Positions 24,699 to 48,900 of a stretch of DNA of 64,000 bases are shown here, in pieces. The position numbers and the translations under genes are program-made. Position 1 is the first letter of the stretch. The number at the start of each line of letters is the position of its first letter. Source of the DNA: Salegentibacter sediminis (GTDB taxonomy: Bacteria; Bacteroidota; Bacteroidia; Flavobacteriales; Flavobacteriaceae); NCBI RefSeq assembly GCF_002078605.1, contig NZ_MSJR01000001.1:744001-808000 (forward strand), written 5' to 3'. A model generated the notes under the pieces. It was not told where the DNA came from. It worked only from the letters and a program-made list of their open reading frames with translations, and ran no database searches.

Positions 24699-25460
24699 TT
24701 AATCAGCAATTATAACCTCCACATTATTTTTTTCCAACATTTCTATATCTGCTTTCTCGATCCCTTCATCAGTAATTACTTTATTGATATGTTCGAAATT
24801 TTGTATAAAAGCAAGCCCTGTTTTTTTAAATTTAGTAGAATCTGCGACTACAATCACTTCTTCAGCAATATCAATCATTATTTGATTAAGGTAAGCTTCT
24901 TCCATATGGTGGGTAAAAAAACCAATGTTACTTCTTATTCCATCTACACCTAAAAATAATTTATTGCAAAATAATTGTTTAAGATTTCGCTCCGCCATTG
25001 GGCCAACCAATGACATAGAAAATTCCTGTAAATAACCCCCGGGCATATATACTTTGAGATTGTCAAATTGAGCCAAATTGTTTACAATATCCAGGGCGTT
25101 GGATATAACGGTTATCTCCTTAAAATTTCCCAAATTACTGGAGATCTCAAAAGTAGTGGTTCCTGAATCTAATATAATAGAATCATTTTCCTGAATAAGA
25201 CTAACAGCTTTTTTCCCGATTAGTTTTTTTAGATCTTTGTTTATAGTTTTCTTTTCGGACACGGCAAGAGCTAAATTACTGGTTTTAAACGCACCACCGT
25301 GTGCCCTAACTAAAAGTTTACTTTGTTCTAATTTATCCAGATCGTTTCTTATCGTAACCTCACTCACTTTTAGTTGATTACTTAGATCGGTAACATTTAC
25401 CTTATTGAATTCATCCAAAATTTCAAGTATTTTGGACCTTCGTGCCGCGGCTTTTCTCAT
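24699..25460 (-). CDS. DeoR-family transcriptional regulator (AgaR-like)
   Basis: 253-aa repressor-type protein. The N-terminal DeoR HTH (about 6-55: ILEILDEFNKVNVTDLSNQL, SEVTIRNDLDKLE, VRAHGGA) is followed by a DeoR C-terminal sensor domain. Its motifs include DSGTTTFEISSNL, VISNALDIVN, GGYLQEFSMSLVGP and VVADSTKFKKTGLAFI, which normally bind a phosphorylated sugar. It sits next to an agaS/kinase/aldolase operon, so a GalN-6-P, GalNAc-6-P or tagatose-phosphate effector is a reasonable inference. Repeated TTTCATTYRAAA motifs across the locus are candidate operators. Confidence 0.9.
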   Translation of the reverse strand: MRKAAARRSKILEILDEFNKVNVTDLSNQLKVSEVTIRNDLDKLEQSKLLVRAHGGAFKTSNLALAVSEKKTINKDLKKLIGKKAVSLIQENDSIILDSGTTTFEISSNLGNFKEITVISNALDIVNNLAQFDNLKVYMPGGYLQEFSMSLVGPMAERNLKQLFCNKLFLGVDGIRSNIGFFTHHMEEAYLNQIMIDIAEEVIVVADSTKFKKTGLAFIQNFEHINKVITDEGIEKADIEMLEKNNVEVIIAD

Positions 25461-25531
25461 ATGTTTGTATTATTCAAGGATTTACCCGTTTCAATTTTAA
25501 ATCGGATATATCTATTATAATAAAGTGAAAA

Positions 25532-25571
25532 TAAAAAATTCCTGTCATTTTTCATCAAAAAACAGGAATTT
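25532..25571 (-). terminator. Terminator after the GH109/agaS operon
   Basis: AAATTCCTGT and ACAGGAATTT form a perfect 10-bp stem around a 16-nt loop, with a T-run on the minus strand. It lies between the GH109 stop and the regulator start, so the regulator probably has its own promoter. Confidence 0.75.
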
Positions 25572-25583
25572 AAAAAAATATTG

Positions 25584-25601
25584 GTTTCATTCGAAAGAAA
25601 C
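25584..25601. promoter_or_regulatory. Palindromic motif, candidate operator of the DeoR regulator
   Basis: GTTTCATTCGAAAGAAAC is an inverted repeat with one mismatched pair. The core TTTCATTCGAAA (25585-25596) recurs exactly, on the opposite strand, at 48775-48786. It recurs as TTTCATTTAAAA at 32018 and 32048. Confidence 0.5.
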
Positions 25602-25621
25602 TAGGCTAAAACACAAAAAAT

Positions 25622-27031
25622 TTAACTTTTTAGAAGTACCTCAGTAGTACCTCCCCCTTGCAAGCTAATATCTACAGGTTTATTGCCTTTCCAGCCACCT
25701 CTTGTAAAATCGGGTACATCTACAGATTGAGCCCTGTTATTTACAGAATCTACAGAAAGAGGAGTAATAGAACTCCATAATGCTGCATCATAAACATCCT
25801 GATCCAACGGTAATCCATTTCTTAGGCAATCTATCAACCTCCAATCCATTATGAAGTCCATACCGCCATGTCCTCCAACTTTTCTAGCCATTTCTCCTAC
25901 CTTTTTAACAATTTCAGGGGTGTATCTGGCTTCTAGTTCTTTGAATTCTTCTTCATTTAACCAGGTATGCCCTTTAGCTACTCTTTCCGGAGTAGGCCAT
26001 TTCCTAGCAAAAGCTTCAGTACCACTAACTAAATGGATCCTTGAATAAGGTCTGGGAGACGATACGTCGTGTTGTACCATTATACTTTTCCCATTCATAG
26101 TTTTTATCATTGTAGTATTCATATTACCCCGATAATCTTTACCGGTGAACTGTTCATAAAAACTATCATCAGCAGCTAACTCCCTGGCTTTTGCCGCCAT
26201 ATGGAAATCATTGCTAGAAAGAGAGGTTAAATAATCCATCTGGTCCCCACGATTTATATTCATGATCTGGCAAATAGGCCCTAAGCCATGAGTCGGATAA
26301 AGATTTCCGTTTCGTTCATAATTCTCGCGTAAACGCCACATATCTTCATAGCCATTTTTATCGAAATTCAAATCTATTAAGTCATGAATATATGCACCTT
26401 CTCCATGGATGATTTCACCAAAATAGCCCTGCCTTGCCATATTCAGAGTTAATAACTCAAAGAAATCATAGCAACAATTTTCAAGCATCATACAATGTTT
26501 TCTGGTCCTTTCAGAAGTTTCTACGAGTTCCCAGCACTCATCGATGGTTTTTGCAGCAGGAACTTCTACAGCAGCGTGTTTACCGGCATTCATGGCATAA
26601 ACAGCCATGGGAGTATGCCATTCCCAGGGAGTAGCAATGTAAATTAAATCTAGGTCCTCGCGATCCACCATTTCCTTCCAGGCATAGTCGCTTCCTGAAT
26701 ATAAATCGGGATCATGAGAAGTATTTTCTAATAATGCTTTTGTTTTCTCTACTGATTCAGGTCTTAAATCACATAATGCTTTAATTTCAACACCTTCAAT
26801 CTGGCTCATTCGGTTTACCGCTTGGGGCCCACGCATACCTAGGCCAATAAACCCAATTCTTACAGTTTCTAATTTGGGTGCTGCATAACCGCTCATATTA
26901 AAACGTTGCGGTCCAGCAGGTCCACCAGTTAAAACCCGCTGTGAAGTATCACAGCTCAATAGGCTTCCACTTATCAGGCCCAGTCCGCCTAAACTGGTTA
27001 CTCTTAAAAAATCTCTTCTATTATTTTTCAT
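25622..27031 (-). CDS. GH109 alpha-N-acetylgalactosaminidase (Gfo/Idh/MocA fold)
   Basis: 469-aa NAD-dependent glycosidase candidate. The N-terminus combines a twin-arginine signal (NNRRDFLR) and a lipobox-like LLSC (Cys about residue 27), so it is probably a Tat-exported lipoprotein. The Rossmann domain (about 55-190) has IGFIGLGMRG and IYIATPWEWHTPMAVYAM. The GH109 hallmarks YPTHGLGPICQ (Tyr245, His248) and KVGGHGGMDFIMDWRL separate it from sugar dehydrogenases. Characterised GH109 enzymes remove terminal alpha-GalNAc by an oxidation/reduction mechanism. Last gene of the agaS operon. Confidence 0.9.
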   Translation of the reverse strand: MKNNRRDFLRVTSLGGLGLISGSLLSCDTSQRVLTGGPAGPQRFNMSGYAAPKLETVRIGFIGLGMRGPQAVNRMSQIEGVEIKALCDLRPESVEKTKALLENTSHDPDLYSGSDYAWKEMVDREDLDLIYIATPWEWHTPMAVYAMNAGKHAAVEVPAAKTIDECWELVETSERTRKHCMMLENCCYDFFELLTLNMARQGYFGEIIHGEGAYIHDLIDLNFDKNGYEDMWRLRENYERNGNLYPTHGLGPICQIMNINRGDQMDYLTSLSSNDFHMAAKARELAADDSFYEQFTGKDYRGNMNTTMIKTMNGKSIMVQHDVSSPRPYSRIHLVSGTEAFARKWPTPERVAKGHTWLNEEEFKELEARYTPEIVKKVGEMARKVGGHGGMDFIMDWRLIDCLRNGLPLDQDVYDAALWSSITPLSVDSVNNRAQSVDVPDFTRGGWKGNKPVDISLQGGGTTEVLLKS

Positions 27032-27067
27032 GATATAAGTTTTAGTAGCAAAATGCTGTATGTGGAT

Positions 27068-28057
27068 TTAAAAATCAGAAAATCCGTAAGTTTCTTTGGC
27101 GTTGGTATAGAAAATCTTATTCACCACTTTCTCAGGAAGGTCAAGGCCTTTGAACTCACCCTGAAATTCAGGCGCAGTCAAGGATTTATTTGTGGCAAAA
27201 AAGTCGTAGTGAAAATTCCACAAATGTTCAAACCGGGCTGCGATTTCATCCGCCGGGGTGTTCCCATCGTCTATTACATCGGTACCATAGATGATCCTGT
27301 CCTGGTATTTTATGCAGAAGTCACGTACAGCCTGCCAATTATCTTTTGCCTGAAGCTGCAAATGACAAACCCGTTCAGCCACATCGGTTAAGGTGTTGGG
27401 ATATTTGTCAAGCCGTGTGGCCACTTCATGAATACTCCATTCCATACTGAAAAGATGAAGACCGACATAGGTGATTCCGGGGAATTTAAGAAGCATGTTG
27501 TCTCTTGCACGCATTTGTTCCTCATAGGAAGGATATTCCTTTTGCAGGAACATATGGTATTCTGGATGATCTTTGAAATAATTCCGGTCTGAATCTACGG
27601 TCATTTCCTCTAGCGGCAACCAACAGTTTCTAGGTTCCCCCTGATGACCTATCAGCATAATATTATTTTTCTGTAGGTATTCAAAAATTGGATCAAAAAC
27701 CGGGTCATCTATCATAACAAAACTGCCATCTTCTTTGTGGTAATCAAAGCCTACATCCTTCCAGATTTTCACTCCAACAGCCCCATTACCTAATCCGCGT
27801 TTTATTTGAGCAATGGCATCCTCAACAAATTCAGGTGTTCCCCATTTTTTGAAATTAAAAGTGGTAAAGTATTTCACCCGACCGGGATATTCCTTCTGAA
27901 ATTTCAGAATTATCTTTTCTTGTTCTTCGATTTCATCAAAAAACGGGATATTAGTATTTATGGATAAAAACCCCGCATTATATTCCATCATTTTCTCCAT
28001 TTTTTCCGGGGACAGCGTGTTTAAATGTACGTGTGCGTCTATAAATTTTGGTATCAT
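27068..28057 (-). CDS. Cytoplasmic amidohydrolase (PF04909-type)
   Basis: About 330-aa metal-dependent TIM-barrel hydrolase. IPKFIDAHVHL supplies the HxH metal motif at the N-terminus. Later motifs are VGVKIWKD, MLIGHQGE, VGLHLF and YGTDVIDD. I start it at the ATG at 28057, directly before the metal motif; an in-frame ATG at 28084 adds nine residues. It has no signal peptide. It differs from NagA/AgaA deacetylases (PF01979), but it lies inside a galactosamine operon that lacks them. It could hydrolyse an amide or a lactone; the substrate is unknown. Confidence 0.8.
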   Translation of the reverse strand: MIPKFIDAHVHLNTLSPEKMEKMMEYNAGFLSINTNIPFFDEIEEQEKIILKFQKEYPGRVKYFTTFNFKKWGTPEFVEDAIAQIKRGLGNGAVGVKIWKDVGFDYHKEDGSFVMIDDPVFDPIFEYLQKNNIMLIGHQGEPRNCWLPLEEMTVDSDRNYFKDHPEYHMFLQKEYPSYEEQMRARDNMLLKFPGITYVGLHLFSMEWSIHEVATRLDKYPNTLTDVAERVCHLQLQAKDNWQAVRDFCIKYQDRIIYGTDVIDDGNTPADEIAARFEHLWNFHYDFFATNKSLTAPEFQGEFKGLDLPEKVVNKIFYTNAKETYGFSDF

Positions 28058-28165
28058 ATGGATTTCTTTTAAATTTTCATTCACCGATTAAACTTTTAAA
28101 GGCTATTACTTTACCTGACTAGCCTTGTCAAAAGAGGATTAGGGACCTTTATATTCAAATTATTT

Positions 28166-28990
28166 TCAGGTATTATTTTTTATGGTCTCCAATTTCCCTT
28201 TAACCAGTTTGGTAATTTCACCGGTTGCTACGGGGAATACCTTTCGTAAATCTATTTCTTCATTATTTCGTAATTGGAATTGCAGGGTTTTCATAAAAAT
28301 ATTCTTTATCTCGGTAGCAAGATTTACTTTGCAAATTCCTCTGGAAATTGCCGCCTGCAATTGTGAGGCTGGAACTCCAGATCCGCCATGCAATACCAAG
28401 CCCACAGGAGTGGCTTCAGCGATTCTCTCAAGTAAACCCAATTGTAATTCAGGTTCTTTTTTATAAAATCCGTGAGCTGTACCAATAGCTACCGCCAAGG
28501 CGTCAATTCCTGTTTCCTCCACAAATTGCTTTGCCTCTTCAGGCTGGGTAAAAACCTTATCGTCATGCGATTGCCCTAACTTGGCCACATATCCTAATTC
28601 AGCTTCCACGTGGGCACCGTATTTCTTAGCACGCGCCACGACCTCTTTTGTGATTTTTATATTTTCCTCAAAAGCTAGTTCACTACCGTCTATCATCACT
28701 GAATCGAAACCAGCATCCAGACAGCGTTGCGCCAGTTCCACAGATCCGCCGTGATCTAAATGGATCCAACCTTCCACACCAAATTGTTTTAATCCTGTTC
28801 GGCCTAAATTAACAGCAGTTTCTAAACCCATATAATCTATAGAGCTTTCTGTAAGTTGTAAGATTAAAGGTTCGTTCATTTCTGAAGCGGCACCCAGCAC
28901 ACCGTGCAGGGTCTCCAGGTTATAAAAATTAGTAGCCAGAATTCCACGGCCTTCACTTCGTAATTGGTGTAATTTTTCTTTTAACTTCAT
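28166..28990 (-). CDS. Class II bisphosphate aldolase (tagatose-1,6-bisphosphate aldolase-like)
   Basis: 274-aa zinc aldolase. Motifs include ILATNFYNLETL, GWIHLDHGGS (Asp-His zinc/acid site), VEAELGYVAK, IGTAHGFYK, VLHGGSGVP and CKVNLATEIK. These match GatY/KbaY/Fba class II aldolases, which cleave tagatose- or fructose-1,6-bisphosphate to DHAP and glyceraldehyde 3-phosphate. Context with AgaS and a LacC-like kinase favours tagatose bisphosphate. Its ATG overlaps the stop of the upstream PfkB kinase (TAATG). Confidence 0.88.
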   Translation of the reverse strand: MKLKEKLHQLRSEGRGILATNFYNLETLHGVLGAASEMNEPLILQLTESSIDYMGLETAVNLGRTGLKQFGVEGWIHLDHGGSVELAQRCLDAGFDSVMIDGSELAFEENIKITKEVVARAKKYGAHVEAELGYVAKLGQSHDDKVFTQPEEAKQFVEETGIDALAVAIGTAHGFYKKEPELQLGLLERIAEATPVGLVLHGGSGVPASQLQAAISRGICKVNLATEIKNIFMKTLQFQLRNNEEIDLRKVFPVATGEITKLVKGKLETIKNNT

Positions 28991-29934
28991 TATAGTTTAT
29001 TATTCTTGATTTCTTGAATTTTTATTTCAATTTCCTTAGCATCACCAAATGCTCCAGTTCCTCCTGCAGCCGTAGTATTTAATGACCCGGTAAGGTTCGC
29101 AAAATCCAGGCATTCCTTTAATGTCGCCCCTTCCAGGAATTTTTTGAGGAACCCGGCATTAAAAGAGTCGCCTGCGCCGATAGCATCTTTGTAAGCTTTA
29201 TTTAAATAAGGTTTGATCAAGATATCTTCCGAGTCTGTTACAACACGTCCACCTTTATCTCCTAATTTTAAAGCAAGAGTATTACTATAGTTTTTTATTA
29301 CTTGAATTGCATCTTCAAGGTTATTCTTTCCGCTAAGCTTCAAAAGTTCATTTTCGTTTGGAAGAAAAATATCTACAAATGGCAAACAATTTTTATAATC
29401 AAAATCCCAATTGTTGTCGGGATCCACCTGTAAATCCAGAGAAGTGCTAAGCCCGGCTTCCTTTGCTTTTTTAAATAGGTTCACGATGTTTGGCTGCATG
29501 CCCGGTTGGAGAAAATAACTTGAAAAATGCAGATGATCGAATTCAGTAATGTTCTTCCAAGGAATATGATTGATAGTTAATTCATTCATCGCTCCACAAA
29601 AAGTCACATTGGCCCGGTCCTGGTCGTAATTCATTACGACAGTAATCCCGGTTTTATGCTTTTTGGAGAGACTAACGAACCGAGGGTCAACATTTTTATT
29701 TTGCAATTCTTTTAGAATATACTCTCCAAAATTATCTTCCCCTAATAGCCCACAAAAAGAGGTTGAAATTCCTAAGGCCGATATATTGGAAGCTAAAATT
29801 GCTGAAGAGCTACCTAAGGTGAAATCCATATTTTCGGCCAGTTTTTCTGCGCCAATTTCCGGGAAGCCATGAATATCATTTAAAATCAGATCGATATTTA
29901 ATTCACCCACAACAAGGATTTTTTTATTACTCAT
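28990..29934 (-). CDS. PfkB-family sugar kinase (ribokinase-like)
   Basis: 314-aa ribokinase-fold kinase. It begins ILVVGELNIDLIL and has an FTLGSSSAILASNISALG substrate region, NENELLKLSG, and the catalytic motif AIGAGDSFNAGFLKKF near residue 255 with the active-site Asp. It is translationally coupled on both sides. One kinase of this operon must make the 6-phosphate of the imported sugar and the other phosphorylates tagatose 6-phosphate. This ribokinase-like one is the better candidate for the free sugar (GalN or GalNAc), by inference. Confidence 0.86.
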   Translation of the reverse strand: MSNKKILVVGELNIDLILNDIHGFPEIGAEKLAENMDFTLGSSSAILASNISALGISTSFCGLLGEDNFGEYILKELQNKNVDPRFVSLSKKHKTGITVVMNYDQDRANVTFCGAMNELTINHIPWKNITEFDHLHFSSYFLQPGMQPNIVNLFKKAKEAGLSTSLDLQVDPDNNWDFDYKNCLPFVDIFLPNENELLKLSGKNNLEDAIQVIKNYSNTLALKLGDKGGRVVTDSEDILIKPYLNKAYKDAIGAGDSFNAGFLKKFLEGATLKECLDFANLTGSLNTTAAGGTGAFGDAKEIEIKIQEIKNNKL

Positions 29935-30850
29935 AAGTTTCTATTTGAACTTGTTTCAACATTTTTTCTACATCTTGCTTTTTTAACATTCCCAATTCTT
30001 TGTTTAAGCAATTAGCTGTTCCACAGGCAACGCCCCAGGTGGCAATCTCTGATAGTTTAAGCTTCTGGTTTAAAGCAAGGGCAATTCCAGCAGTTAAACA
30101 GTCACCACTACCAACCGTACTTATAACTTGGCTGGGTGGAAGGCTGATTTTAGCTTTGATAATTTCATCCCTATAGGCGAGTTCAAGCCCTTCAGCCCCT
30201 TTGGTTAAAACTATAAATTGAACTTTATCACCAAGAAATTCTCGAAGAGTTCTTATATCGGTTGCACCGCAAATCGTTTTGGCTTCGTGATGATTAAGGT
30301 GAATTCCGAAGAATCCTTCCTTTAAAGCGTTTTGCAATTGAATTCCAGTACAATCCAAAATTACTTTTTTATGATACTTCTTTGCTATCTCAATAAGCTG
30401 TGCATAGCCATCATTAGGGGATTCTGCCGGCCAGGATCCCGACATACAGATAAATTCAGCCTTGGTAACCTCTCTGTTGAATAGGGTAATAAATTCTTCG
30501 AAGTGTGAATGATTAATTTTCGGGCCTGGTTCCAGTAATTCGGTATGGTGCAATTTCGTATTTTCTGAGATAAACGTATAGCATTTACGGTTGTTTCCTC
30601 TTATATTCACACCATCTATTTCTACCTTCTTAGTCTTACATTCCTGAATAATCCAATCACCACTTCCTCCGGCCCAAAATCCGAGAAGTTTAGACGAAAA
30701 ACCTAACTCAGCAATAGCAAGAGCCACGTGTACACCTTTTCCTCCCGGATAATCCTCTAAAGCAGAGATTCTATTAACCTCTCCAAGTTTAAAATCAGGA
30801 ATCCGGGCATATGAATCGATAGAAGGATTGGGACAAAGATTAAGGATCAT
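29927..30850 (-). CDS. PfkB-family hexose-phosphate kinase (LacC/FruK-like)
   Basis: 307-aa kinase of the 1-phosphofructokinase/tagatose-6-phosphate kinase group. Motifs are LCPNPSIDSYARIPDF, EDYPGGKGVHVALAIAELG, CMSGSWP and VGSGDCLTAGIALAL with the catalytic Asp. The group normally phosphorylates fructose 1-P or tagatose 6-P to the bisphosphate. With the adjacent class II aldolase this is probably tagatose-6-phosphate kinase. It overlaps both neighbours (8 and 4 bases), typical of an operon. Confidence 0.87.
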   Translation of the reverse strand: MILNLCPNPSIDSYARIPDFKLGEVNRISALEDYPGGKGVHVALAIAELGFSSKLLGFWAGGSGDWIIQECKTKKVEIDGVNIRGNNRKCYTFISENTKLHHTELLEPGPKINHSHFEEFITLFNREVTKAEFICMSGSWPAESPNDGYAQLIEIAKKYHKKVILDCTGIQLQNALKEGFFGIHLNHHEAKTICGATDIRTLREFLGDKVQFIVLTKGAEGLELAYRDEIIKAKISLPPSQVISTVGSGDCLTAGIALALNQKLKLSEIATWGVACGTANCLNKELGMLKKQDVEKMLKQVQIETYE

Positions 30851-31992
30851 TTTTTTTGCTTTTCAGGATAATCGTAAATTTTCACACCCTGTACTACACG
30901 GCTTATTGCTCCGGAAACTGAAGGGTTGTCTGGGTTCAGTCCTAATTGCAGTGATTTATAGTATCCTAAAATCTGCCCAATGATAGTAGCTGGAATGATA
31001 TTGAAATCTTGGTTTTTGTCCAGTTCTAAATCAATATTTAAATAAGAATTAATATCCGAATCAGCTTTCCGACCAACACTGAAAGTTAATAAATTTCTGG
31101 GATCCCGGGCTATGGAGATTGCCAGATCGCGCTCATAACGATATACATGATCTTGAGAAGAGAACAGATAAACGACTAGCGTTTTCTCATTGGTTACTGC
31201 GCGGGGGCCGTGTCGAAAACCTAAGAAAGAATCGTGTTTACAAATAATCTTGCCATCTGTTAATTCTTGAAGTTTTAAGTGGCATTCCCGAGCTATGCCA
31301 AGCATGGGGCCGGAACCTAAAAACACTACTCGTTCGAATTCTAATTGGGTTAGCTTTTTGAGTTGTGTATAATTGCTTAGCAAATAGTTAGCTTGAATAA
31401 TTATTTTATCAACCTGCTTTTTCAAAGTAAAAACATTCTTTTTGCTGCTTGCCAAGAGGACACTTAATAACATAGAAGTAAAGCTTCCGGTCATAGCAAG
31501 ACTTTTATCATTTGCTTTTTCCGGGAGCAATATTGCTAAAGCAGTTTTGGTATTCGCACGGGTATAAGTGAATAGTTCCCCCTCTTTATTGCAGGTTATT
31601 ATCAAATGATAAATGTTCTTGCAAAATTTATCGGCAAGCTTTACGGTTTCAATACTTTCAGGACTATTACCAGAACGGGCGAAAGAAACCAAAAGAACAG
31701 GACTACTATTTATTGGAAAAAATAATTCGGGATGTGTTACCAAATCAGTAGTTGCAATTGCTCGTGTTAAACATCCGGTGTTCTTTTGCACTAATCCTTG
31801 AGCGGCCTCTCCTACAAATGCAGAAGAACCGGCACCTGTCAAAATAATTTGTAAATTTTCTTTTTCATATAAAGGAGTGAGAAAGCGCTTAATTCCTTCT
31901 TCTTCTGCCTTTATTTGATTAAAAACCTCCTGCCAAAGCTTAGGTTGGCCTTCAATCTCAGTTCTTGTATGATTAAGTTCAGTATTTATCAT
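30847..31992 (-). CDS. agaS: SIS-domain galactosamine-6-phosphate isomerase/deaminase (AgaS-like)
   Basis: 381-aa protein with two SIS domains. The first has IILTGAGSSAFVGEAAQGLV and LVSFARSGNSPESIE; the second has VFLGSGPMLGIARECHLKLQEL and the DSFLGFRHGPRA motif of AgaS proteins. AgaS converts galactosamine 6-phosphate to tagatose 6-phosphate with release of ammonia. It is the first gene of the minus-strand operon, so its upstream region (31993-32100) holds the operon promoter and two copies of the candidate operator. Confidence 0.9.
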   Translation of the reverse strand: MINTELNHTRTEIEGQPKLWQEVFNQIKAEEEGIKRFLTPLYEKENLQIILTGAGSSAFVGEAAQGLVQKNTGCLTRAIATTDLVTHPELFFPINSSPVLLVSFARSGNSPESIETVKLADKFCKNIYHLIITCNKEGELFTYTRANTKTALAILLPEKANDKSLAMTGSFTSMLLSVLLASSKKNVFTLKKQVDKIIIQANYLLSNYTQLKKLTQLEFERVVFLGSGPMLGIARECHLKLQELTDGKIICKHDSFLGFRHGPRAVTNEKTLVVYLFSSQDHVYRYERDLAISIARDPRNLLTFSVGRKADSDINSYLNIDLELDKNQDFNIIPATIIGQILGYYKSLQLGLNPDNPSVSGAISRVVQGVKIYDYPEKQKK

Positions 31993-32062: not shown

Positions 32063-32326
32063 TAAATACAAATAAACAAAATAAAACGAAATAAAAAAAG
32101 CTAAATAATGTAATTTTTTATTCGGTTTTTTAAAATAAGCAATCCATTCTTAGGGTAGGGATACAATTTCTGGAGTTGTCTCAGCTATTATTTGATATAA
32201 CCTGTGAATGCAGTGTAATCAAGGCATTGTATTAGTATCTAATACACTTTAGGAGTAAAAGATTTCTTTTTAAGAGCACTTCTCTCAAAAAATAAAGTAA
32301 TAAATTGAAAATTATTGTCTAAAACT

Positions 32327-32475: not shown

Positions 32476-35400
32476 ATGAAAAACATTCTACTACTAATGT
32501 GTTTTGTTTTACTTTCTCAAGTAAGCAGTTTTGCACAAGATTCTAACATTGACGTGAGTGGTGTGGTGACCGATGAGAATTCTGGGTTGCCTATACCAAC
32601 CGTAAATGTTGTCGAAAAAGGCACGTCGAACGGTGTAATGACAGATTTTGATGGAAATTTTAATATTAATGTTGCGGAAGACGCAGTTCTAGTTTTTTCT
32701 TTTATGGGTTATTCCACAAAAGAAGTGAGCGTGCAAGGACGGGACTATATTGAAGTTACTATGAAAGAAGAAGCTTCAGCCTTAAATGAAGTAGTTTTAA
32801 TTGGATATGGTACGCAGAAGAAGAAAAATCTCACTGGTGCTATCTCTTCTATTGAAACTGAGGATATTGTGTTGACTGGCGGGGCGGATATAGGGAATAT
32901 GATCAAAGGAAAGGCTGCTGGATTGAATATTCAGCAGAACAGTGCTCAACCTGGTGGTGGTTTAGATATTACGATTAGAGGAGCTGGTTCGATAAATGCT
33001 AGTAATGACCCCTTAATCGTAGTGGATGGTTTTCCGATTACAGATTTGGAGCAACCTGATACAGGAGGGAGATATGACGCGGGCACACAGAGTATTTTAA
33101 ATTCCTTCAATCCCAGTGATATTGAATCCATAGAGGTTCTAAAAGATGCGAGTGCTACTTCAATTTATGGGTCAAGAGCGGCCAATGGAGTAATTTTAAT
33201 CACTACCAAGAGAGGTGCAGAGGGTAGACCTACAGTTCAGTATTCTGTTTCTTCTTCTTTTCAACCTTATAATAGTCCCTTTGATGTTTTACCATTAAAT
33301 GAATGGATGGAAGTGAGGAATGAAGCAGCCTGGGAACATTGGTTATTCACCAATAATGTATCTCCCTGGGGCGAGCGTTCTTTGGAGGAGGCGGAATCGA
33401 ATCCTGTTGCAGGTCAATACCAGCAACTCTATACTCAAAACGCTATTAATAATGTAGGTAAAGGAACTGATTGGGTTGATTTGGTGACTAGGGATGGAAT
33501 GATAAAACAACATAACATTTCTCTTTCTGGTGGAAGTGATTCTTTTAAATATAGGCTTTCTGGAAATTATTTCGATCAGGAAGGTGTTGTGAAAAACTCT
33601 GCATTAACCAGATATACAATAAGGGGTAATTTGGACCAGACTTTTAATGAATATCTGAAGCTTGGTTTTAATATTTCAACCAGCCGTATAGACAATGAAA
33701 ATAGTTCTCTGGGAGGTGGAATGTGGGAGAATTCGGGAGTCATCAGAGCTGCTATGCAGCAAGGACCTCATATTCAGGCTATTGATGAGGATGGGAATTA
33801 CCCAATAAATCCACAATTGTCTCAGCAACCTAATCCATACTCCTTACTTACAATTACTGATAGGGGAAGGATAGAGAGGACTATGATTAATTCATTTTTG
33901 GACATAACACCTGTAGATGGATTGTTGGTAAGATTAAAAGCAGGTTTGGATAGAGGAATAACTGACAGATGGAGTTATATTCCTAAAACAACTCTCCATG
34001 GAGCTTTGGAAGATGGAAGAGCTAGTATATCAGAGATAGATAATAATCATTATCTTCTTGAAGCTACTGCTAACTACAACCGGGAGATAGGAGATGGACA
34101 TAATTTTGATCTTTTGGTTGGTGTTTCGGAAGAGCACTTTGAAGACGCTTCTAATAGTAGTGGGAATACAGGATTTATTACTGATGCTTTTCTATGGAAC
34201 AATTTAAACGCGGGTACCGGCACAAGAAGTGTTAGTTCTTACGGGCAGGAAAGAATGATAGCTTCCTATTTTAGTCGTTTGAATTATAATTTTAAAGAAA
34301 GGTATCTAATTACTTTTACTGTTCGTACAGATGGTTCAAGTGTGTTTGCGGAAAACAATAAATGGGCTACTTTCCCTTCTGGGGCTTTCGCCTGGAATAT
34401 CGCGGAAGAACCTTTCCTTGAAGATATTGATGAGGTTGTGTCACACTTGAAATTAAGGTTTAGTTATGGAGAAACAGGGAATGCTTCAATTGGAAGTAAT
34501 GCCTTTGCCGCTTATTCGGCTTATCCAGCATATCTTTCAGGAGAGGATGTGAGAAATATAGGTGTTTCCCTTGCCAGGCTCGAAAATCCTGATCTAAAAT
34601 GGGAGACTACTACCGAAGCAAACTTTGGAATCGATTTTGGGTTCTTTGAAAACCGGATCAATGGTTCGGTAGAAGTTTATCACAGGATAATATCTGATCT
34701 CTTAGCCACAAAACCATTAAACTCTTATCATGAGATTAACACAGTTATTGCAAATATTGGTGAGACAGAAAGCAAAGGTCTTGAAATAACCGTTAACACT
34801 CATAATATTAAAAGTCTGGACTTCCAATGGAAAAGCACCTTTACCTTTGGGAGCTTTAAGGATAATTGGAGGGAAAGAGCAGATGATTGGAAGCCGGCAG
34901 TTTATCAAAACGAGGACGATCCGATCAGGGCCATCTATAGTAGAATCTCTGACGGGATTATGCAGGAGGGAGAGGAAGTTCCAGCGCAACCAAATCTTCA
35001 ACCCGGAATGATAAAGATTGTTGATTTTAATGGATTTGTACGTGATGATGCAGGAAACCCTGTTGTTGACGAAAATGGTCGCTTTCTGAGAACAGGTGCG
35101 CCTGATGGAATGATCGATGAAGCAGACACGAAATTAATAGGCACTTCGGATCCAGATTTCGTAATAGGTTTCTCCAATGTTTTAAACTATAAAAACTTTG
35201 ATTTTAAATTTGACTTCAATGGAATGTTCGGACGCAAAATGGCTGATCCAAATTACACTGCCTATGGAGTTAGCGCTGAGCCGATTTATACTTATGGGTA
35301 CAACGCTTTAAGGACAGTCAAAGATCGTTGGACACCTAATAATCCATCTACTACACAACCCAGCTCTTACTATGGCTGGTCGGAGTATGGATCTGGAGAC

Positions 35401-35628
35401 TTCTTTTTGGAAGATGCATGGTTTATTCGATTGCAAAATGTTTCCTTGGGATATGACTTGCCACAAACCTGGTTTGGAGGTGTTTTTGAGCAGGCTCGTA
35501 TACATGTTGACGGACAGAATTTATTCGTGATTACCCCTTATGGCGGGATTGATCCTGAAACTGATTCCTATACTGCGGCATATCCAAACGTCCGAACCTT
35601 TACCTTAGGAGCGAACATTACATTTTAG
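32476..35628 (+). CDS. SusC-family TonB-dependent outer membrane receptor
   Basis: 1050-aa importer of the SusC/RagA type. A signal peptide (1-20, ending SSFAQ) is followed by a carboxypeptidase-regulatory-like domain (about 25-105). A TonB-box-like stretch NEVVLIGYG (about 108-116) precedes the plug, which has DPLIVVDGFPI and SATSIYGSRAANGVILITTKRG. The C-terminal beta-barrel ends TLGANITF. It should take up oligosaccharides together with the SusD-like lid encoded 22 bases downstream. No extended N-terminal signalling domain is seen, so control probably rests with the DeoR regulator. Confidence 0.95.
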   Translation: MKNILLLMCFVLLSQVSSFAQDSNIDVSGVVTDENSGLPIPTVNVVEKGTSNGVMTDFDGNFNINVAEDAVLVFSFMGYSTKEVSVQGRDYIEVTMKEEASALNEVVLIGYGTQKKKNLTGAISSIETEDIVLTGGADIGNMIKGKAAGLNIQQNSAQPGGGLDITIRGAGSINASNDPLIVVDGFPITDLEQPDTGGRYDAGTQSILNSFNPSDIESIEVLKDASATSIYGSRAANGVILITTKRGAEGRPTVQYSVSSSFQPYNSPFDVLPLNEWMEVRNEAAWEHWLFTNNVSPWGERSLEEAESNPVAGQYQQLYTQNAINNVGKGTDWVDLVTRDGMIKQHNISLSGGSDSFKYRLSGNYFDQEGVVKNSALTRYTIRGNLDQTFNEYLKLGFNISTSRIDNENSSLGGGMWENSGVIRAAMQQGPHIQAIDEDGNYPINPQLSQQPNPYSLLTITDRGRIERTMINSFLDITPVDGLLVRLKAGLDRGITDRWSYIPKTTLHGALEDGRASISEIDNNHYLLEATANYNREIGDGHNFDLLVGVSEEHFEDASNSSGNTGFITDAFLWNNLNAGTGTRSVSSYGQERMIASYFSRLNYNFKERYLITFTVRTDGSSVFAENNKWATFPSGAFAWNIAEEPFLEDIDEVVSHLKLRFSYGETGNASIGSNAFAAYSAYPAYLSGEDVRNIGVSLARLENPDLKWETTTEANFGIDFGFFENRINGSVEVYHRIISDLLATKPLNSYHEINTVIANIGETESKGLEITVNTHNIKSLDFQWKSTFTFGSFKDNWRERADDWKPAVYQNEDDPIRAIYSRISDGIMQEGEEVPAQPNLQPGMIKIVDFNGFVRDDAGNPVVDENGRFLRTGAPDGMIDEADTKLIGTSDPDFVIGFSNVLNYKNFDFKFDFNGMFGRKMADPNYTAYGVSAEPIYTYGYNALRTVKDRWTPNNPSTTQPSSYYGWSEYGSGDFFLEDAWFIRLQNVSLGYDLPQTWFGGVFEQARIHVDGQNLFVITPYGGIDPETDSYTAAYPNVRTFTLGANITF

Positions 35629-35650
35629 GTTAAAATAAAAATTTCGAGTT

Positions 35651-37123
35651 ATGAAAACACACAAAATAATTATCTTATTGTTAGCAGCTCTTACCTTTGG
35701 CAGCTGTGAAAAGGAACTTGAACTAGTGGATTATGGGGAAATAAACCCTTCTATATTTCCTCAGTCCGCCGCCGATGTGCAGGCCATGGTCGATGCTTCC
35801 TATTATCCATTGCGTGCCTCCTGGTGGGATGGTATAAATTCACCTTCAGAAAGAGGGATCATGTTCGCTAATGCATCAACCACGGAAGTGCTCACGGGAG
35901 ATTTCGGGGTGCAGTTAAATGCTAGTCTGCTTCATTTTACTCCTGCAAGTACGGAAATCACTTTTTTCTACGATTGGTACTATAATAAAATCAGCCGAAT
36001 GACAACGACCATTGATTATATTCAACAGGCCGATGTGAGCGAGGAAATAAAGACTAAAGCCATTGCGGAGGTTCGTTGTGCAAGAGGTATGCTGGCTTAT
36101 TATCTATACGATATGTACGGCCCAATTGTAATAGCGCCATTGGAGGTCCTGAAGAATCCTCTCAAAGAGGAACCCTTGCCAAGACTTTCCCATGATGAAA
36201 TGGTAAATTTTATTGAAGCAGATCTTAAAGCGGCAGCCGAGGATCTACCGCATCCGGCGGAAACAGAATACGGAAGATTTAGCAAGGGGCTTGCAAAAAT
36301 GCTTGCCATAAGATTGAATCTTAAAGAGAAAAGATGGGATGAGGTAAACAAACTTGCCGATGAGATCATTGCCATGGGATATTATGAGCTGGATTCTGAT
36401 TATTTGGGTATGTGGGATTTGGACGGAGCTAGAAATAGCCAGGAAGTTATTTGGGCCATTCCAAATGATTATGAAGGCACTAGTGAGAACCAATGGCAGA
36501 TGATGGCTTTGCCTTCCAATTTTCCAGGTAGAGGTGGCTGGGGAACTGTCCAGAGTACATGGTGGTTTTATGACACCTTCGAAGAAAATGATGTCCGGAA
36601 AACGAATCTTATTGCAGAATATGTTGGAACAGATGGCATTACATACAATAGAAGCAATCCAGGGAATAATATGAATCTTGGACCGATTCCCCTTAAAATG
36701 GATGCAGATGCAGCAAGAACGACTGCACTTTCAACGGTTGATCTTATTCAATATCGTTATGCGGACGTACTCCTTTCAAAGGCGGAAGCAATAGCTAACC
36801 ATAACGCTTCCGGCCCGAACGAAGAAGCCATGGAGTTGGTTAATCGGGTACGTCGGAGAGCTAATCTTGATGATTTGGAGCTGGATGACTATAGCAACCT
36901 TTCTGACTTCAATGATATGATTCTTACGGAAAGAAGCCATGAGTTCTGGTGTGAAAATGGTCAATATCGGGCAGATCTTATTCGTCACGGTAAACTTATT
37001 TCCAGGGTTATTGAAGTTACACAATCGCCCTATGCAACAGAAACAGACACTGTATATCCGTTCTCCAGAGAAAGAATCAGTGAAGGGAAAGGGGTTTTTA
37101 TCCAGAATCCAGGATATAACTAG
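35651..37123 (+). CDS. SusD/RagB-family glycan-binding lipoprotein
   Basis: 490-aa surface lipoprotein with a signal ending FGSCEK (Cys about residue 19). It has SusD-type sequence: PQSAADVQAMVDASYYPLRA, ADVSEEIKTKAIAEVRCARGMLAYYLYDMYGP, and the C-terminal VDLIQYRYADVLLSKAEAIA and ILTERSHEFWCENGQYRADLIRHGK. It forms the lid and glycan-binding partner of the SusC protein. Second gene of the plus-strand susCD operon. Confidence 0.95.
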   Translation: MKTHKIIILLLAALTFGSCEKELELVDYGEINPSIFPQSAADVQAMVDASYYPLRASWWDGINSPSERGIMFANASTTEVLTGDFGVQLNASLLHFTPASTEITFFYDWYYNKISRMTTTIDYIQQADVSEEIKTKAIAEVRCARGMLAYYLYDMYGPIVIAPLEVLKNPLKEEPLPRLSHDEMVNFIEADLKAAAEDLPHPAETEYGRFSKGLAKMLAIRLNLKEKRWDEVNKLADEIIAMGYYELDSDYLGMWDLDGARNSQEVIWAIPNDYEGTSENQWQMMALPSNFPGRGGWGTVQSTWWFYDTFEENDVRKTNLIAEYVGTDGITYNRSNPGNNMNLGPIPLKMDADAARTTALSTVDLIQYRYADVLLSKAEAIANHNASGPNEEAMELVNRVRRRANLDDLELDDYSNLSDFNDMILTERSHEFWCENGQYRADLIRHGKLISRVIEVTQSPYATETDTVYPFSRERISEGKGVFIQNPGYN

Positions 37124-37160: not shown

Positions 37161-38537
37161 ATGAGAAGAAAGATGTTTAACGGATTATTATGGGGCCTAC
37201 TGTTTGGTAGCTTAAGCCTAGGTTGTTCGGATTCAGGGCCTGATGAAGAAATACCCGAAATTAAACCAAAAGGAATAACTTACGAGGAATCACAAGAGGT
37301 TTTTCCTAACCCCGAGAGAGGTTTCTATGACCACACAGAGGCTCACGGCCCAGATGATGGATTGACTTCAACACAATTGAGTTCTCTAAAATCGGAAAAT
37401 GTGTCCTTGATCATTAGGGTATACTATTTAACCAATTATAGGGATGGGCAGATAGATGTGGCAATGTTAGAAATGATCAAAAGCGATATGGAAGCCGTAC
37501 GTGATGCGGGAATTAAAGCTATCATAAGGTTTGCCTATACCAATGAAATGGAAGGGGAGGATGCGTCTCTGGAAAAAATAGAAGACCATGTAGAGCAGTT
37601 GGCCCCCGTTCTTAATTCAAATAAAGATGTAATAGCTTTTATCCAGGCGGGTTTTATTGGTCCCTGGGGAGAGTGGCATAATTCAAGCCATGGCCTGACG
37701 ACTGTGGAAAATGAAAGAAAAATTCTTTTCAAACTTTTAGAAGAGCTTTCTTCGGACATCTTAGTGCAGGTGAGAACTCCAGGAGCAAAACAAAGAATTT
37801 TCGAAACAGCTGAACCTATAGGATCGGCAATAGCTTATACAGATGAATTTCGTGCCAGGGTTGGCCATCACAATGACTGTTTTATGGCAGGAGTAGATGA
37901 TTACGGGACCTACGCTAATGTAGAGGCCGAAAAAGCATATATTAACCAGGAAGCTCTATATGTTCCTACAGGGGGTGAAACCTGTCCTCCACAGGGTGAC
38001 TATCCTGATTGTGCAAAAGCCCGGGAAGAAATGAAACTCCTAAGATGGACGTATTTGAATCGCGATTATTACCTGCCCGTAATTAGCAGTTGGAAAGATG
38101 CAGGATGTCTGGATGAATTCAAAAGGAGACTGGGTTATCGTTTTGTCCTGGATAGTGCTATTCTACCGGAAGAGATAGATCAGGGCGGGAATTATCCTCT
38201 ACAAATAAACCTAACTAACAAGGGATTTGCGCCGCTCTATAAGGCAAAGACAACAAGCTTGGTGTTTGTTAATAAAACAGATGGCGGTAAGTATACCTTT
38301 GAATTGGCTGTGGATTTAAGGGAAGTTAAACCTGGTGTATCTTTTACTATTGAAGAATCAGTGAAAATTTCAGAGCTTCCTGCCGGTAATTATGATCTCT
38401 TTTTGGAAATCACAGATGAATCAGAAAAACTTGAAAACCGGGTGGATTATAAAATCCGTTTGGCAAATAAAAATTCCTGGGACCCCGAAAGCGGAATGAA
38501 TAAACTCCAGCAGCAAGTAACAGTGTTGGCAGATTAA
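37161..38537 (+). CDS. DUF4874/DUF4832 lipoprotein, putative TIM-barrel glycan hydrolase (paralogue 1)
   Basis: 458-aa lipoprotein (Cys about residue 22, LGCSD). An N-terminal DUF4874-like domain opens with VFPNPERGFYDHTE. A DUF4832-like part contains QAGFIGPWGEWHN, RVGHHNDCFMAG, DDYGTY, TGGETCPP, WTYLNRDYY and LGYRFVLD. A C-terminal beta-sandwich (about 365-455) follows. These motifs recur in the paralogue at 46903-48414. The repeated acidic residues (Glu in WGE and GGETC) look catalytic, but this is inference; no activity is known to me. Third gene of the susCD cluster, so probably a surface enzyme or binder for the same glycan. Confidence 0.8.
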   Translation: MRRKMFNGLLWGLLFGSLSLGCSDSGPDEEIPEIKPKGITYEESQEVFPNPERGFYDHTEAHGPDDGLTSTQLSSLKSENVSLIIRVYYLTNYRDGQIDVAMLEMIKSDMEAVRDAGIKAIIRFAYTNEMEGEDASLEKIEDHVEQLAPVLNSNKDVIAFIQAGFIGPWGEWHNSSHGLTTVENERKILFKLLEELSSDILVQVRTPGAKQRIFETAEPIGSAIAYTDEFRARVGHHNDCFMAGVDDYGTYANVEAEKAYINQEALYVPTGGETCPPQGDYPDCAKAREEMKLLRWTYLNRDYYLPVISSWKDAGCLDEFKRRLGYRFVLDSAILPEEIDQGGNYPLQINLTNKGFAPLYKAKTTSLVFVNKTDGGKYTFELAVDLREVKPGVSFTIEESVKISELPAGNYDLFLEITDESEKLENRVDYKIRLANKNSWDPESGMNKLQQQVTVLAD

Positions 38538-40652: not shown

Positions 40653-41723
40653 ATGATAAGAATAATTGTGCCACTTTTTCTAATAGTTTTGACAGGCAAC
40701 TTTTCTTTCGGACAAGAACAAGATATTTTGTTAAAGGAATATGATCCCGTCTCTATATATAATATTCCAAAAACCTTTCCTGTAAAGGCCAGGTTTCCTG
40801 TAATCGATATGCATTCTCATCCATATGCGAAATCTCAGTCAGAAATTGAAGAATGGATAGATAACATGGATGAAGCCGGAATAGAAAAGACAATACTTCT
40901 CACTTATGAGACCGGAGTTGCTTTTGATAGTATTTACGACGTTTATTCGAAATATGAAGGGCGATTTGAATTATGGTGTGGGTTTGATTATACAGGATAC
41001 GATCAGCCGGACTGGACCAAAAAAGCTGTTGCAGAACTTGTGCGCTGCTATAAGAAAGGGGCCAGGGGTGTTGGCGAGTTGGGAGATAAGGGAGAAGGTC
41101 TTTCTTATTCTCAACCAACTGCAGCTCCTGGGATGCACATCGATGATAAGAGGATGGTTCCTCTTCTTAAAAAATGTGGGGAATTAGGAATGCCTGTGAA
41201 CATTCATGTTGCTGAGCCCTACTGGATGTATCAACCTATTGACAAGCATAATGACGGGTTAATGAATGCCAAGACTTGGAAAGTAGATACAACAAAGAAT
41301 GGAATTTTGGGGCATGCAGCACTTTTGAAGACTTTGGAAAATGCAGTAAACAGCAATTCTGGGACTACTTTTATTGCTTGTCATTTTGCTAATACAAGTT
41401 ATGACCTCGGCATTCTGGGTGATCTCCTGGAAAAATATCCAAACCTTTACGCAGATATTTCTGCGCGCTATGCAGAGACTGCTCCTATTCCTCGACGTGT
41501 TAAAAAGTTTTTTGAAAAGTACCAGGATAGATTACTTTATGGAACTGATATGGGTTTTTCACCTTCCATGTATACCACAACTTTCAGGATTTTAGAAACC
41601 GAAGATGAACATTTTTACCAAAAGGATATGTTTAGTTATCACTGGGCGTTAAACGGCTTTGGTTTATCTGATAATATTTTAAAAAAAATATACTATGAAA
41701 ATGCGAGACGAATACTTCAATAA
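40653..41723 (+). CDS. Exported amidohydrolase (PF04909-type)
   Basis: 356-aa secreted protein with a signal peptide (1-20, ending FSFGQ). The TIM-barrel metal-hydrolase motifs are FPVIDMHSHPY (HxH, about residues 54-56), GVGELGD, PVNIHVAEPYW, FIACHFANTSYDLG, YADISARYAE and LLYGTDMGF with the late Asp ligand. It is distinct from the cytoplasmic amidohydrolase of the agaS operon. It probably acts in the periplasm on a sugar derivative. Its end overlaps the GH36 start by 29 bases. Confidence 0.82.
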   Translation: MIRIIVPLFLIVLTGNFSFGQEQDILLKEYDPVSIYNIPKTFPVKARFPVIDMHSHPYAKSQSEIEEWIDNMDEAGIEKTILLTYETGVAFDSIYDVYSKYEGRFELWCGFDYTGYDQPDWTKKAVAELVRCYKKGARGVGELGDKGEGLSYSQPTAAPGMHIDDKRMVPLLKKCGELGMPVNIHVAEPYWMYQPIDKHNDGLMNAKTWKVDTTKNGILGHAALLKTLENAVNSNSGTTFIACHFANTSYDLGILGDLLEKYPNLYADISARYAETAPIPRRVKKFFEKYQDRLLYGTDMGFSPSMYTTTFRILETEDEHFYQKDMFSYHWALNGFGLSDNILKKIYYENARRILQ

Positions 41724-44253: not shown

Positions 44254-45117
44254 TCAAACGGATAAAATAAAAATAGCAACTACAGCCAGGATCAATCCTA
44301 TTATGAGGATTGGACCTGGCATAACACTGTATATGATCAAGGACAGAATAATGGTGATTAGGGGCGCCAGGCCCGTGAGCGGAGCAACAATTATAGCTTT
44401 TCCATAGCGAAAAGCGTAAACCAGCGTTAAAGCACCTACTGCATTTAATACATGTATTATGGCAGCAAGGTAAGGTCCCTTGAACCCCCAGTTAATCGAT
44501 TGACTGAAATCAGTCATCCATATTGCTAAAGGGGCCAGAAGAAGTCCCATTAGAGCCATATAGAAGAAAATGCTTTCCGCTTTCATAGTTTTATTGGAAA
44601 ATTTCATGATGAAGGCTTGTAAGCCCCAGGCAATAAAAACCATTACTGAAAATGCAAGCCAAACATATCCCCGGACTTCCGATGTTCCAGGTTCTTGATA
44701 GGAAAGGAAAAAAATAGCTATCAATGCAGTTCCTATCCCTATCCATTTTAAAAATGATGTTTTTTCTTTTAATAGTACCACTGACAAAAGAATGGTGAGT
44801 GCCGGAGAAAGAGATATGAAAGGGAAAATGATGTAAGCAGGTCCGTCTTGGAGGGCTTGGAAAAGCAGGAGTTGACCTCCTGCTCCAAGAATTCCCACGG
44901 CTGATCCTAAAATTATTGATCGTTTATCCTTATCAATTTTCCACTTTACCAGATACAGTGCAATGGCGGCACAGGGAATCATGGTAAGTGCCCAAATCAC
45001 ATACCCGAGAGTGGCAGGGAAACCTGCTTTCTCTGGTATTTCGATAAGTGCACCCCAAACTCCCCAGAATACTGTTGTTATTATCGCATAAAATAGCCAC
45101 GAGTGTAATTTCTTCAT
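44254..45117 (-). CDS. EamA/DMT-family transporter
   Basis: Inner-membrane protein of about 287 aa with ten predicted helices in two EamA halves (FWGVWGALIEIP; GRP/RhaT-like LLQALQDGPAYIIFPFISLSPALT). I start it at the ATG at 45117 (MKKLHSWLFY); an upstream ATG would add 26 charged, non-conserved residues. Drug/metabolite or sugar transport is typical of the family. In this locus it may export or import a sugar-derived metabolite, by inference. Confidence 0.82.
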   Translation of the reverse strand: MKKLHSWLFYAIITTVFWGVWGALIEIPEKAGFPATLGYVIWALTMIPCAAIALYLVKWKIDKDKRSIILGSAVGILGAGGQLLLFQALQDGPAYIIFPFISLSPALTILLSVVLLKEKTSFLKWIGIGTALIAIFFLSYQEPGTSEVRGYVWLAFSVMVFIAWGLQAFIMKFSNKTMKAESIFFYMALMGLLLAPLAIWMTDFSQSINWGFKGPYLAAIIHVLNAVGALTLVYAFRYGKAIIVAPLTGLAPLITIILSLIIYSVMPGPILIIGLILAVVAIFILSV

Positions 45118-45267
45118 AATAATTTTTTCGTCAGGTCCGGGTATGTATAATCTTTCGGACGCAATAGAAAATTGAATACAGCATTCCATCCGCATACCAA
45201 GTCAATTCCGATGGTTTTAATCATTCTCCCAATTCTTTTATAGCTTTTTTGATAAAGCATAAACTGC

Positions 45268-48414: not shown

Positions 48415-48900
48415 ATGGAAGTTTTTTATAAAACGAAAGAAAGTATTTACTTTCCGGTCTTTAATAATCATAAAAGTATATAAAAACAGTCGGTTAATAA
48501 ATTTTAAATTTCGTTTTCTTTGTATTTTGCTTGCACAATATATAAAAAATATTGTGAATTACCCTTTTTATTATGCCAGATTTTATAACTAGAATGTTGT
48601 TTTAATCTATTATTTTATGAAGTAATCCTCTAAAAATAACGATTCTAATTTATGTTAGGAAGTTTTGTGTTTAAAGTGATAACTTGAAATAAGAATTTTA
48701 TGATTTAAAAATTAAGAAAGGAATCGAAGTTTAAATTTTACTATTTGGCTATTTAATTATAGATTTATGCACTTTTTCGAATGAAAAAAATACAAATTCT
48801 TAAAGACCTCTGAACTGGTCAATAGAAATATACTCTTAAAACAAGATGAATTTCAAAGTAGGGTATCATTAAACAAACTAATTTAAAAAGCGAAGAACCA
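48415..48900. promoter_or_regulatory. Divergent control region with TTTCGTTT and TTTCATTCGAAA motifs
   Basis: Between the DUF4832/GH31 operon and the MFS gene. TTTCGTTTTCTTTG (48509-48522) resembles AgaR-type direct repeats, as I recall that consensus. TTTCGAATGAAA (48775-48786) is an exact reverse copy of the motif at 25585. AT-rich; no gene seen. Confidence 0.45.

Follow-up and report, generated by a model that had tools for sequence, protein, structure and literature searches.

What removes the acetyl group from N-acetylgalactosamine (GalNAc) in a bacterium whose operon for galactosamine (GalN) 6-phosphate catabolism includes no gene for a classical deacetylase? The question is raised by a run of minus-strand genes in Salegentibacter sediminis, located in a window of 64 kb (C1:744001-808000; contig NZ_MSJR01000001.1) of a genome of 3.26 Mb in 22 contigs. 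The run consists, in this order, of agaS, the genes of two sugar kinases (PfkB1 and PfkB2), a tagatose-bisphosphate aldolase, an amidohydrolase of family PF04909 (termed AH2a here) and a GH109-family protein, and agaR (24699-31992). Positions 27068 to 31992, the stretch considered in a first-pass annotation, hold five of these genes (PF04909, class II aldolase, two PfkB and AgaS-family SIS); beyond that stretch the run goes on with GH109 and then the AgaR-like repressor. Three solutions had been offered for the missing deacetylation step: a glycan that is already de-N-acetylated, a deacetylase encoded elsewhere, or use of the PF04909 protein itself. The last is the best supported of the three, by co-occurrence, and the new function that it would give to the family stays a prediction. 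AH2a is fairly probably a non-orthologous deacetylase of GalNAc or GalNAc 6-phosphate in a NagA-independent, tagatose-6-phosphate-type operon for GalNAc and GalN.

Co-occurrence and linkage of AgaS and AH2a

A single set of 395 genomes from the phylum was searched three times, for AgaS, AH2a and NagA. AgaS (E<=1e-40) is present in 20 genomes and NagA (TIGR00221, E<=1e-30) in 71. Relatives of AH2a were found in 36 genomes at E<=1e-30, including 18 of the 20 with AgaS, and in 19 at E<=1e-45, the line for a close AH2a, which was set after seeing the data, at a gap in the score list. AgaS and a close AH2a occur together in 17 genomes, in every one of which the distance between them is 74-4363 bp. 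Close AH2a is found in two of the 375 genomes devoid of AgaS (G109, G568), and AgaS without close AH2a in three (G403, G535, G643). Counted by genome, the Fisher p value for this co-occurrence is 7e-25; counted by genus (AH2a in 7 of 10 AgaS genera versus 2 of 161 others) it is 6e-9. Both values are too small because of shared descent.

NagA was not found in 13 of the 17 genomes with both AgaS and AH2a (TIGR00221 at E<=1e-30, with which a NagA profile of five rows agrees at E<=1e-12). Neither of the two found NagA in G376, a genome of the same genus outside the sample, which carries the entire operon with an AH2a that is 87% identical. At E<=1e-30 the TIGR00221 search missed the control Bacillus subtilis, a species with nagA. 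Relaxing the threshold to E<=0.001 brought in all 14 controls, and weak partial nagA matches then appeared in all 20 genomes tested, which apart from the long matches in G535, G539, G547 and G575 reach at most 37 bits and were not counted. NagA is present in five of the 20 AgaS genomes (G000, G535, G539, G547, G575). A depletion of NagA in AgaS genomes was considered and rejected (5/20 versus 66/375; Fisher p 0.38).

The gene content of the AgaS loci was compared by unbiased BLAST clustering of every open reading frame (ORF) of at least 150 amino acids in 19 sampled loci and in positions 20000-50000 of the window. AgaS was recovered in 19 of these 20 loci, AgaR and PfkB2 in 18 each, AH2 in 17 and the aldolase in 15, followed by SusC and SusD (13 each) and GH109-type proteins (12). 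The AH2 count takes in L090, which has only a relative of the second PF04909 protein of the window (AH2b), and leaves out L095, where AH2a is masked by a longer spurious ORF. Because the PF04909 family is fourth among the families common to AgaS loci, its association with AgaS is more than chance. Among the nameable families present in at least six loci, AH2 is the sole plausible amide hydrolase; one six-locus cluster lacks a name. In a named scan of AH2a relatives, covering the best 80 of 504 confirmed stretches, AgaS (at least 250 bits) occurs in 29 loci, including 17 of the 21 whose AH2a relative is at least 51% identical, and NagA in two, neither of which carries AgaS. The nearest named relative among these best 80 is from Salegentibacter flavus (98% identity). 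No NagA or AgaA was found within the 19 fetched AgaS loci, nor in the 29 AgaS-bearing loci of the best 80.

In a tree of 123 PF04909 rows, AH2a belongs to clade A (44 rows), of which 37 have AgaS in their locus (36 fetched loci and the window). The sister clade B (61 rows) has AgaS in 10-12, depending on whether matches of about 40 bits are counted. Support for the two clades is 90 and 85, respectively, by the SH-like approximate likelihood ratio test (SH-aLRT) only. The likely true start of AH2a is at 28057 (MIPKF...), which yields a protein of 329 amino acids in which no signal peptide was seen. Counted from the first start codon, the H-x-H motif begins after 2-29 residues in clade A and after 33-71 in 58 of the 61 clade B rows, and a crude leader rule marks 1/44 clade A rows versus 55/61 clade B rows. 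Given these short N-termini and rare leaders of clade A, the operon version AH2a probably resides in the cytoplasm, where the pathway requires it, and clade B is mostly exported.

Predicted fold and active site of AH2a

The AlphaFold2 (AF2) model of AH2a is a confident TIM barrel (predicted local distance difference test score, pLDDT, 94.1; predicted TM-score, pTM, 0.91), and alignment and model together place a His-x-His motif and further putative metal ligands in a barrel of the PF04909 type. Residues H18, H20, K106, H147, H210 and D269 (numbering of a 338-residue protein) are invariant over 32 aligned sequences from both clades, and all 44 rows of clade A keep HxH, V-K-x-W-K, the histidines of strands 5 and 6, and the final [TS]D. 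The predicted ligand residues are located on or just past strands 1, 4, 5, 6 and 8 of the model. With its complete H-x-H/K/H/H/D motif AH2a is probably metal-dependent. K106 corresponds to K97 of the model, lies within strand 96-98, and is kept in 44/44 clade A and 61/61 clade B rows. A lysine at strand 4 is typical of dihydroorotase-type binuclear amidohydrolases (subtype I), where it is carboxylated and bridges two metals; in the model, the strand-4 lysine of AH2a resembles this type. CE9 NagA proteins are described as having a glutamate at this position (PMC6016474, PMC12017989). AH2a and NagA/CE9 share the TIM barrel of the amidohydrolase superfamily and the proposed reaction. They differ in that AH2a has lysine rather than glutamate at strand 4, gives no match to NCBIfam at E<=0.001, the nagA model TIGR00221 included, and begins its barrel at residue 5, with no leading beta domain in the model.

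The structural neighbours of the model include 3irs (Z 21.8, root-mean-square deviation (rmsd) 2.9, 240 residues) as well as 3cjp (Z 19.8, rmsd 2.8, 229 residues), both uncharacterised; dihydroorotases follow behind these (Z 17.4-17.8, rmsd 3.6-3.9, 244-253 residues, 11-15% identity). No sugar deacetylase was recognised among the neighbours listed for AH2a, which is no evidence either way. Since decarboxylases and lactonase-type proteins of COG3618 are among the characterised folds close to the model, and contexts vary in clade B, AH2a might instead be a lactonase, a decarboxylase or another hydrolase with a by-product as its substrate, such as one formed by a GH109-like enzyme of the Gfo/Idh type. 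We consider this unlikely: AgaS, the kinases and the aldolase require no lactone or decarboxylation step, the acetyl group being the sole hydrolytic gap of the pathway, and the GH109 homologue BT4243 is reported as an exo-alpha-N-acetylgalactosaminidase (PMC11992087).

NagA in the genome of S. sediminis

The absence of a NagA/AgaA-type gene, as stated in the first-pass annotation, is correct for the operon and for the window of 64 kb, which contain no match, and incorrect for the genome. The genome-wide search that had been suggested there returned one NagA (C16:302201-303334; TIGR00221 199.1 bits against a cut-off of 225.65, E 8.8e-59, match span C16:302300-303316), which led us to reject the claim that the genome lacks NagA. 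The protein is 30% identical to NagA of Escherichia coli, and the five-row NagA profile, which has it among its rows, retrieves the same gene. Its neighbours encode a sodium symporter, a GH20-like protein and a NagB-like (Glucosamine_iso) protein, a set that fits an N-acetylglucosamine (GlcNAc)-type pathway. The deacetylase families searched for in the genome were NagA and PF02585, with CE4 polysaccharide deacetylases and others not searched for; PIG-L deacetylases (PF02585) are encoded at four places, none of them in the window.

With this NagA on C16, a deacetylase encoded elsewhere is possible: it would act on GalNAc 6-phosphate in S. sediminis and leave AH2a with another job. In E. coli, NagA can stand in for AgaA (PMC3668189), and mycobacterial NagA is reported to accept GalNAc 6-phosphate, with a Km 40-fold above that for GlcNAc 6-phosphate (PMC6016474); by analogy with E. 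coli, the C16 enzyme could possibly serve GalNAc. Nevertheless, no tie to the aga operon was found: the gene keeps GlcNAc-type company, and a search for AgaR-type sites that allowed one mismatch gave none in the 19-kb stretch around it. This explanation, which we regard as rather unlikely, also fails for the 13 AgaS- and AH2a-bearing genomes and G376, because no NagA was found in them.

Glycan context

In the same-genus loci L049, L099 and L101 the operon lies between genes for a GH2 beta-galactosidase and a sulfatase on one side and NanA-like, SusC/D and neuraminidase-like genes on the other (family tests were made for L049 only). These neighbours suggest an N-acetylated, animal-type glycan as the substrate. 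In the window, GalN residues may be among the substrates because of its two DUF4874/DUF4832 proteins and its GH36-type gene (Table 1). A DUF4832 protein of Streptococcus intermedius is described as disrupting Pel-dependent aggregates (PMC12345266), the domain is reported from pel clusters of Gram-positive bacteria (PMC7112168), and Pel is given as a GalN-GalNAc dimeric repeat (PMC9135694). The proposal that the glycan is already de-N-acetylated, a Pel-like galactosamine polymer for which a deacetylase is needless and AH2a has some other role, finds its support in these window genes, the S. intermedius precedent and G403, where DUF4832, GH36-type and aga genes occur without AH2a, AH2b or NagA, and is nonetheless quite improbable, given that the AH2a operon elsewhere sits with GH109 and, in the same genus, with the GH2, sulfatase, NanA-like and neuraminidase-like genes, and that half of the units of a GalN-GalNAc repeat would still require a deacetylase.

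In each of the three genomes with AgaS and no close AH2a (G403, G535, G643), a GH36-type gene lies no more than about 20 kb from agaS. Of the 17 loci where AH2a is present, 12 have GH109-type genes, and none of the three AgaS loci without close AH2a does, a split that would be expected were AH2a required for GalNAc and less for GalN, with the reservation that the numbers are small and the stretches unequal. The window itself holds GH36-type and GH109 genes together, despite this split elsewhere.

DUF4874/DUF4832 proteins recur in aga loci; apart from the two of the window they are found in L091 (6466-8700) and, by similarity only, in L125 (11006-14209). Their recurrence suggests loci for Pel-like or galactosaminogalactan polymers.

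Proposed pathway and its relation to known systems

From the gene content we infer the following route for an operon with AH2a as deacetylase. GH109, and perhaps the GH31 and GH36 enzymes too, would free the sugar in the periplasm, and a permease, perhaps the EamA protein, would take it inward. AH2a, probably cytoplasmic and probably metal-dependent, would strip off the acetyl group, with PfkB2 phosphorylating O6 before or after this step. AgaS would then deaminate and isomerise GalN 6-phosphate to tagatose 6-phosphate, and PfkB1 and the aldolase would complete the pathway.

The pathway as such is known; the new element is probably the non-orthologous enzyme replacement by AH2a. With the proteobacterial and streptococcal aga operon (AgaA/NagA, AgaS, LacC or KbaZ, KbaY, AgaR) the operon shares the clustering of AgaS, AgaR, a tagatose-6-phosphate kinase-type protein and a class II aldolase, and AgaR-type operator-like sites; it differs by having a PF04909 protein instead of AgaA/NagA, no phosphotransferase system genes, and PfkB as candidate sugar kinase. 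OngB, a D-aminoacylase-like deacetylase described as acting on GlcNAc1A, is a precedent for recruitment of a non-CE9 amidohydrolase as sugar de-N-acetylase, but its mononuclear Cys/His/His site and its family are other than those of AH2a (PMC12017989). The GalNAc route of Bacteroides thetaiotaomicron likewise combines GH109 and GalNAc in a related host, but there the APH-type 1-kinase BT4240 phosphorylates GalNAc at O1, and the word deacetylase is absent from the main text (PMC11992087). In the openly licensed literature, so far as its text was accessible, we found no paper that joins PF04909 and deacetylase, and none that assigns an AH2a-like role in an AgaS or GalNAc context; the one GalNAc survey that names both AgaS and an amidohydrolase has the latter only within a reference.

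Several observations weigh against AH2a being the deacetylase. The genome of S. sediminis carries NagA, as do G539, G547 and G575, and in G575 and G547 the gene is about 10 kb and about 20 kb, respectively, from agaS on the same contig, beyond the fetched stretches. AgaS occurs in G403 with none of AH2a, AH2b and NagA, and in G643 with an AH2b relative and neither close AH2a nor NagA. The folds listed near AH2a are those of uncharacterised PF04909 proteins, decarboxylases, lactonases, phosphotriesterase-like enzymes and dihydroorotase, and an AH2a profile found no match at E<=0.01 among the sequences of solved structures. The clade B proteins share the lysine and the final aspartate motif, often where no amino-sugar genes are recognisable; two of their loci, L124 and L172, hold NagA as well; and relatives with 43-44% identity in G291 and G109 sit outside aga loci. 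Thus the motif alone does not mean deacetylase. The idea that AH2a is unique to amino-sugar loci was likewise rejected, clade B contexts being varied: of six clade B loci read by eye, other than the six with a strong NagX-like protein, five are without recognised amino-sugar genes and one has a GH36-type gene.

GalNAc is a frequent constituent of mucins, glycosaminoglycans and some biofilm polymers. In a published reconstruction of gut genomes, the ability to use GalNAc is read from the presence of AgaA, and genomes with AgaS but no AgaA are taken to use GalN only (PMC5583593). If AH2a is a deacetylase, this rule would misread operon-bearing genomes, and PF04909 would gain an amide-hydrolysing sugar branch. 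At a probability a little under even, AH2a may represent a new family of carbohydrate de-N-acetylases that frees GalNAc catabolism from NagA in Bacteroidota, Balneolota and relatives, and that may act on free GalNAc prior to phosphorylation, opposite to the textbook sequence of steps. Its exported sister clade, near NagX-like acetyltransferases and GH109, might then form a periplasmic relay of deacylation, re-acetylation and cleavage, comparable to lysosomal breakdown of heparan sulfate.

Gene layout and regulation of the operon

AgaS, tagatose-bisphosphate aldolase, tagatose-6-phosphate kinase and AgaR, the combination that defines an aga-type operon, are encoded together, with AgaR and AgaS scoring under curated cut-offs (Table 1). 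The agaS, PfkB1, PfkB2 and aldolase genes overlap each other by 1-8 bases.

Table 1. Features of the window in and around the aga-type operon (positions within the 64-kb window)
Feature	Position	Strand	Basis
AgaR-like DeoR-family repressor	24699..25460	-	NF040755 252.1 bits (cut-off 260), PF00455, PF08220; relatives in 18/20 AgaS loci
GH109-family protein, putative exo-alpha-N-acetylgalactosaminidase	25622..27031	-	PF21252 149.5 bits, PF01408; exported, lipoprotein-like N-terminus by eye
AH2a, PF04909 amidohydrolase	27068..28084	-	PF04909 57.4 bits (gathering cut-off 26.4)
Class II ketose-bisphosphate (tagatose-1,6-bisphosphate) aldolase	28166..28990	-	PF01116 287.9 bits; TIGR00167 236 bits, above cut-off 215.6
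PfkB2, ribokinase-like sugar kinase, proposed GalN/GalNAc 6-kinase (putative substrate)	28990..29934	-	PF00294 171.9 bits; relatives in 18/20 AgaS loci
PfkB1, LacC-like tagatose-6-phosphate kinase	29927..30850	-	TIGR03168 218.8 bits, above cut-off 216.4; two LacC models 141-159 bits, under cut-off
AgaS-family galactosamine-6-phosphate deaminase/isomerase	30847..31992	-	TIGR02815 364.2 bits (cut-off 529.2), PF01380; next best family 86 bits
AgaR-type operator candidate	32078..32096	-	86-104 bp upstream of agaS start; exact match to TTTCRTTTYRTTTY and overlapping copy with one mismatch
SusC/SusD pair, polysaccharide utilisation locus divergent from aga operon	32476..37123	+	TIGR04056 874 bits; PF07980, PF14322
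DUF4874/DUF4832 protein, Pel-hydrolase-like architecture	37161..38537	+	PF16116 208 bits, PF16173 163 bits
AH2b, second PF04909 protein, exported-looking N-terminus	40653..41723	+	PF04909 67.3 bits; overlaps following gene
GH36-type (Melibiase) glycosidase	41695..43788	+	PF02065 43.8 bits
EamA/DMT permease, candidate inner-membrane amino-sugar carrier	44254..45195	-	PF00892 102.4 bits; relatives in 8/20 AgaS loci including window
GH31-family glycosidase	45268..46872	-	PF01055 133.3 bits
Second DUF4874/DUF4832 protein	46903..48471	-	PF16116 188 bits, PF16173 151 bits

For operator sites the AgaR consensus (TTTCRTTTYRTTTY) served as query. An exact match is located 86-99 bp ahead of agaS, and at most one mismatch gives three matches in the whole window, two of them overlapping before agaS and one at 15666. 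When up to two mismatches were allowed, the window-wide search proved uninformative (30 matches, a number reached by 19 of 100 shuffles, versus 24.9 expected). Sites with one mismatch or none are also present in 22 of 45 agaS upstream regions (up to 350 bp) of other loci, where mononucleotide shuffles expect 0.7; the 22 sites are not independent events because some of the regions are near-identical (e.g. L084, L165). No such site was found in G376, L099 and L101.

PfkB1 (LacC-like; eight loci including the window) and a KbaZ-like protein (seven loci) are mutually exclusive over 20 stretches (loci L078-L096 and the window), which agrees with a proposed role of AgaZ/KbaZ in carrying out or supporting the tagatose-6-phosphate kinase step. 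Some aga loci encode relatives of the EamA permease that score 300-400 bits; other loci have a sodium/solute symporter.

Other PF04909 loci

Six clade B loci (L124, L130, L138, L149, L151, L160) encode a strong NagX-like transmembrane protein; two loci encode a weaker one. NagX is a proposed glucosamine acetyltransferase (PMC9007349). The two NagX-like proteins tested score 113 and 127 bits with NF046061, far under the cut-off of 480, and a Pfam search of one NagX-like protein gave no match. All six loci also carry GH109, and in L138, L149 and L151 the NagX-like gene is flanked by two AH2a copies.

In L173 (9911-14203; Chlorobiota) the gene of an exported AH2a relative is followed by those of an SIS protein with weak similarity to AgaS (39 bits), a transporter-like protein and, by eye, a ROK-kinase-like protein. 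No NagA was found in this stretch, which is possibly an independent NagA-less amino-sugar route.

AH2b lies about 12.6 kb from AH2a and gave one weak match to sequences of solved structures (E 0.043). Its relatives in G535, G643, G712 and G490 are 57-68% identical; G535 combines one of them with NagA and AgaS and has no close AH2a. The AH2b and GH36-type genes of the window (40653-43788) share 29 bp, and the same pairing is seen in the aga-bearing loci L087, L090, L117, L120 and L125. Flavonifractor has a GalNAc deacetylase, FpGalNAcDeAc, together with a GH36 galactosaminidase, FpGalNase (PMC11762096); likened to it by description, AH2b and the GH36-type protein may form a secreted pair of deacetylase and galactosaminidase.

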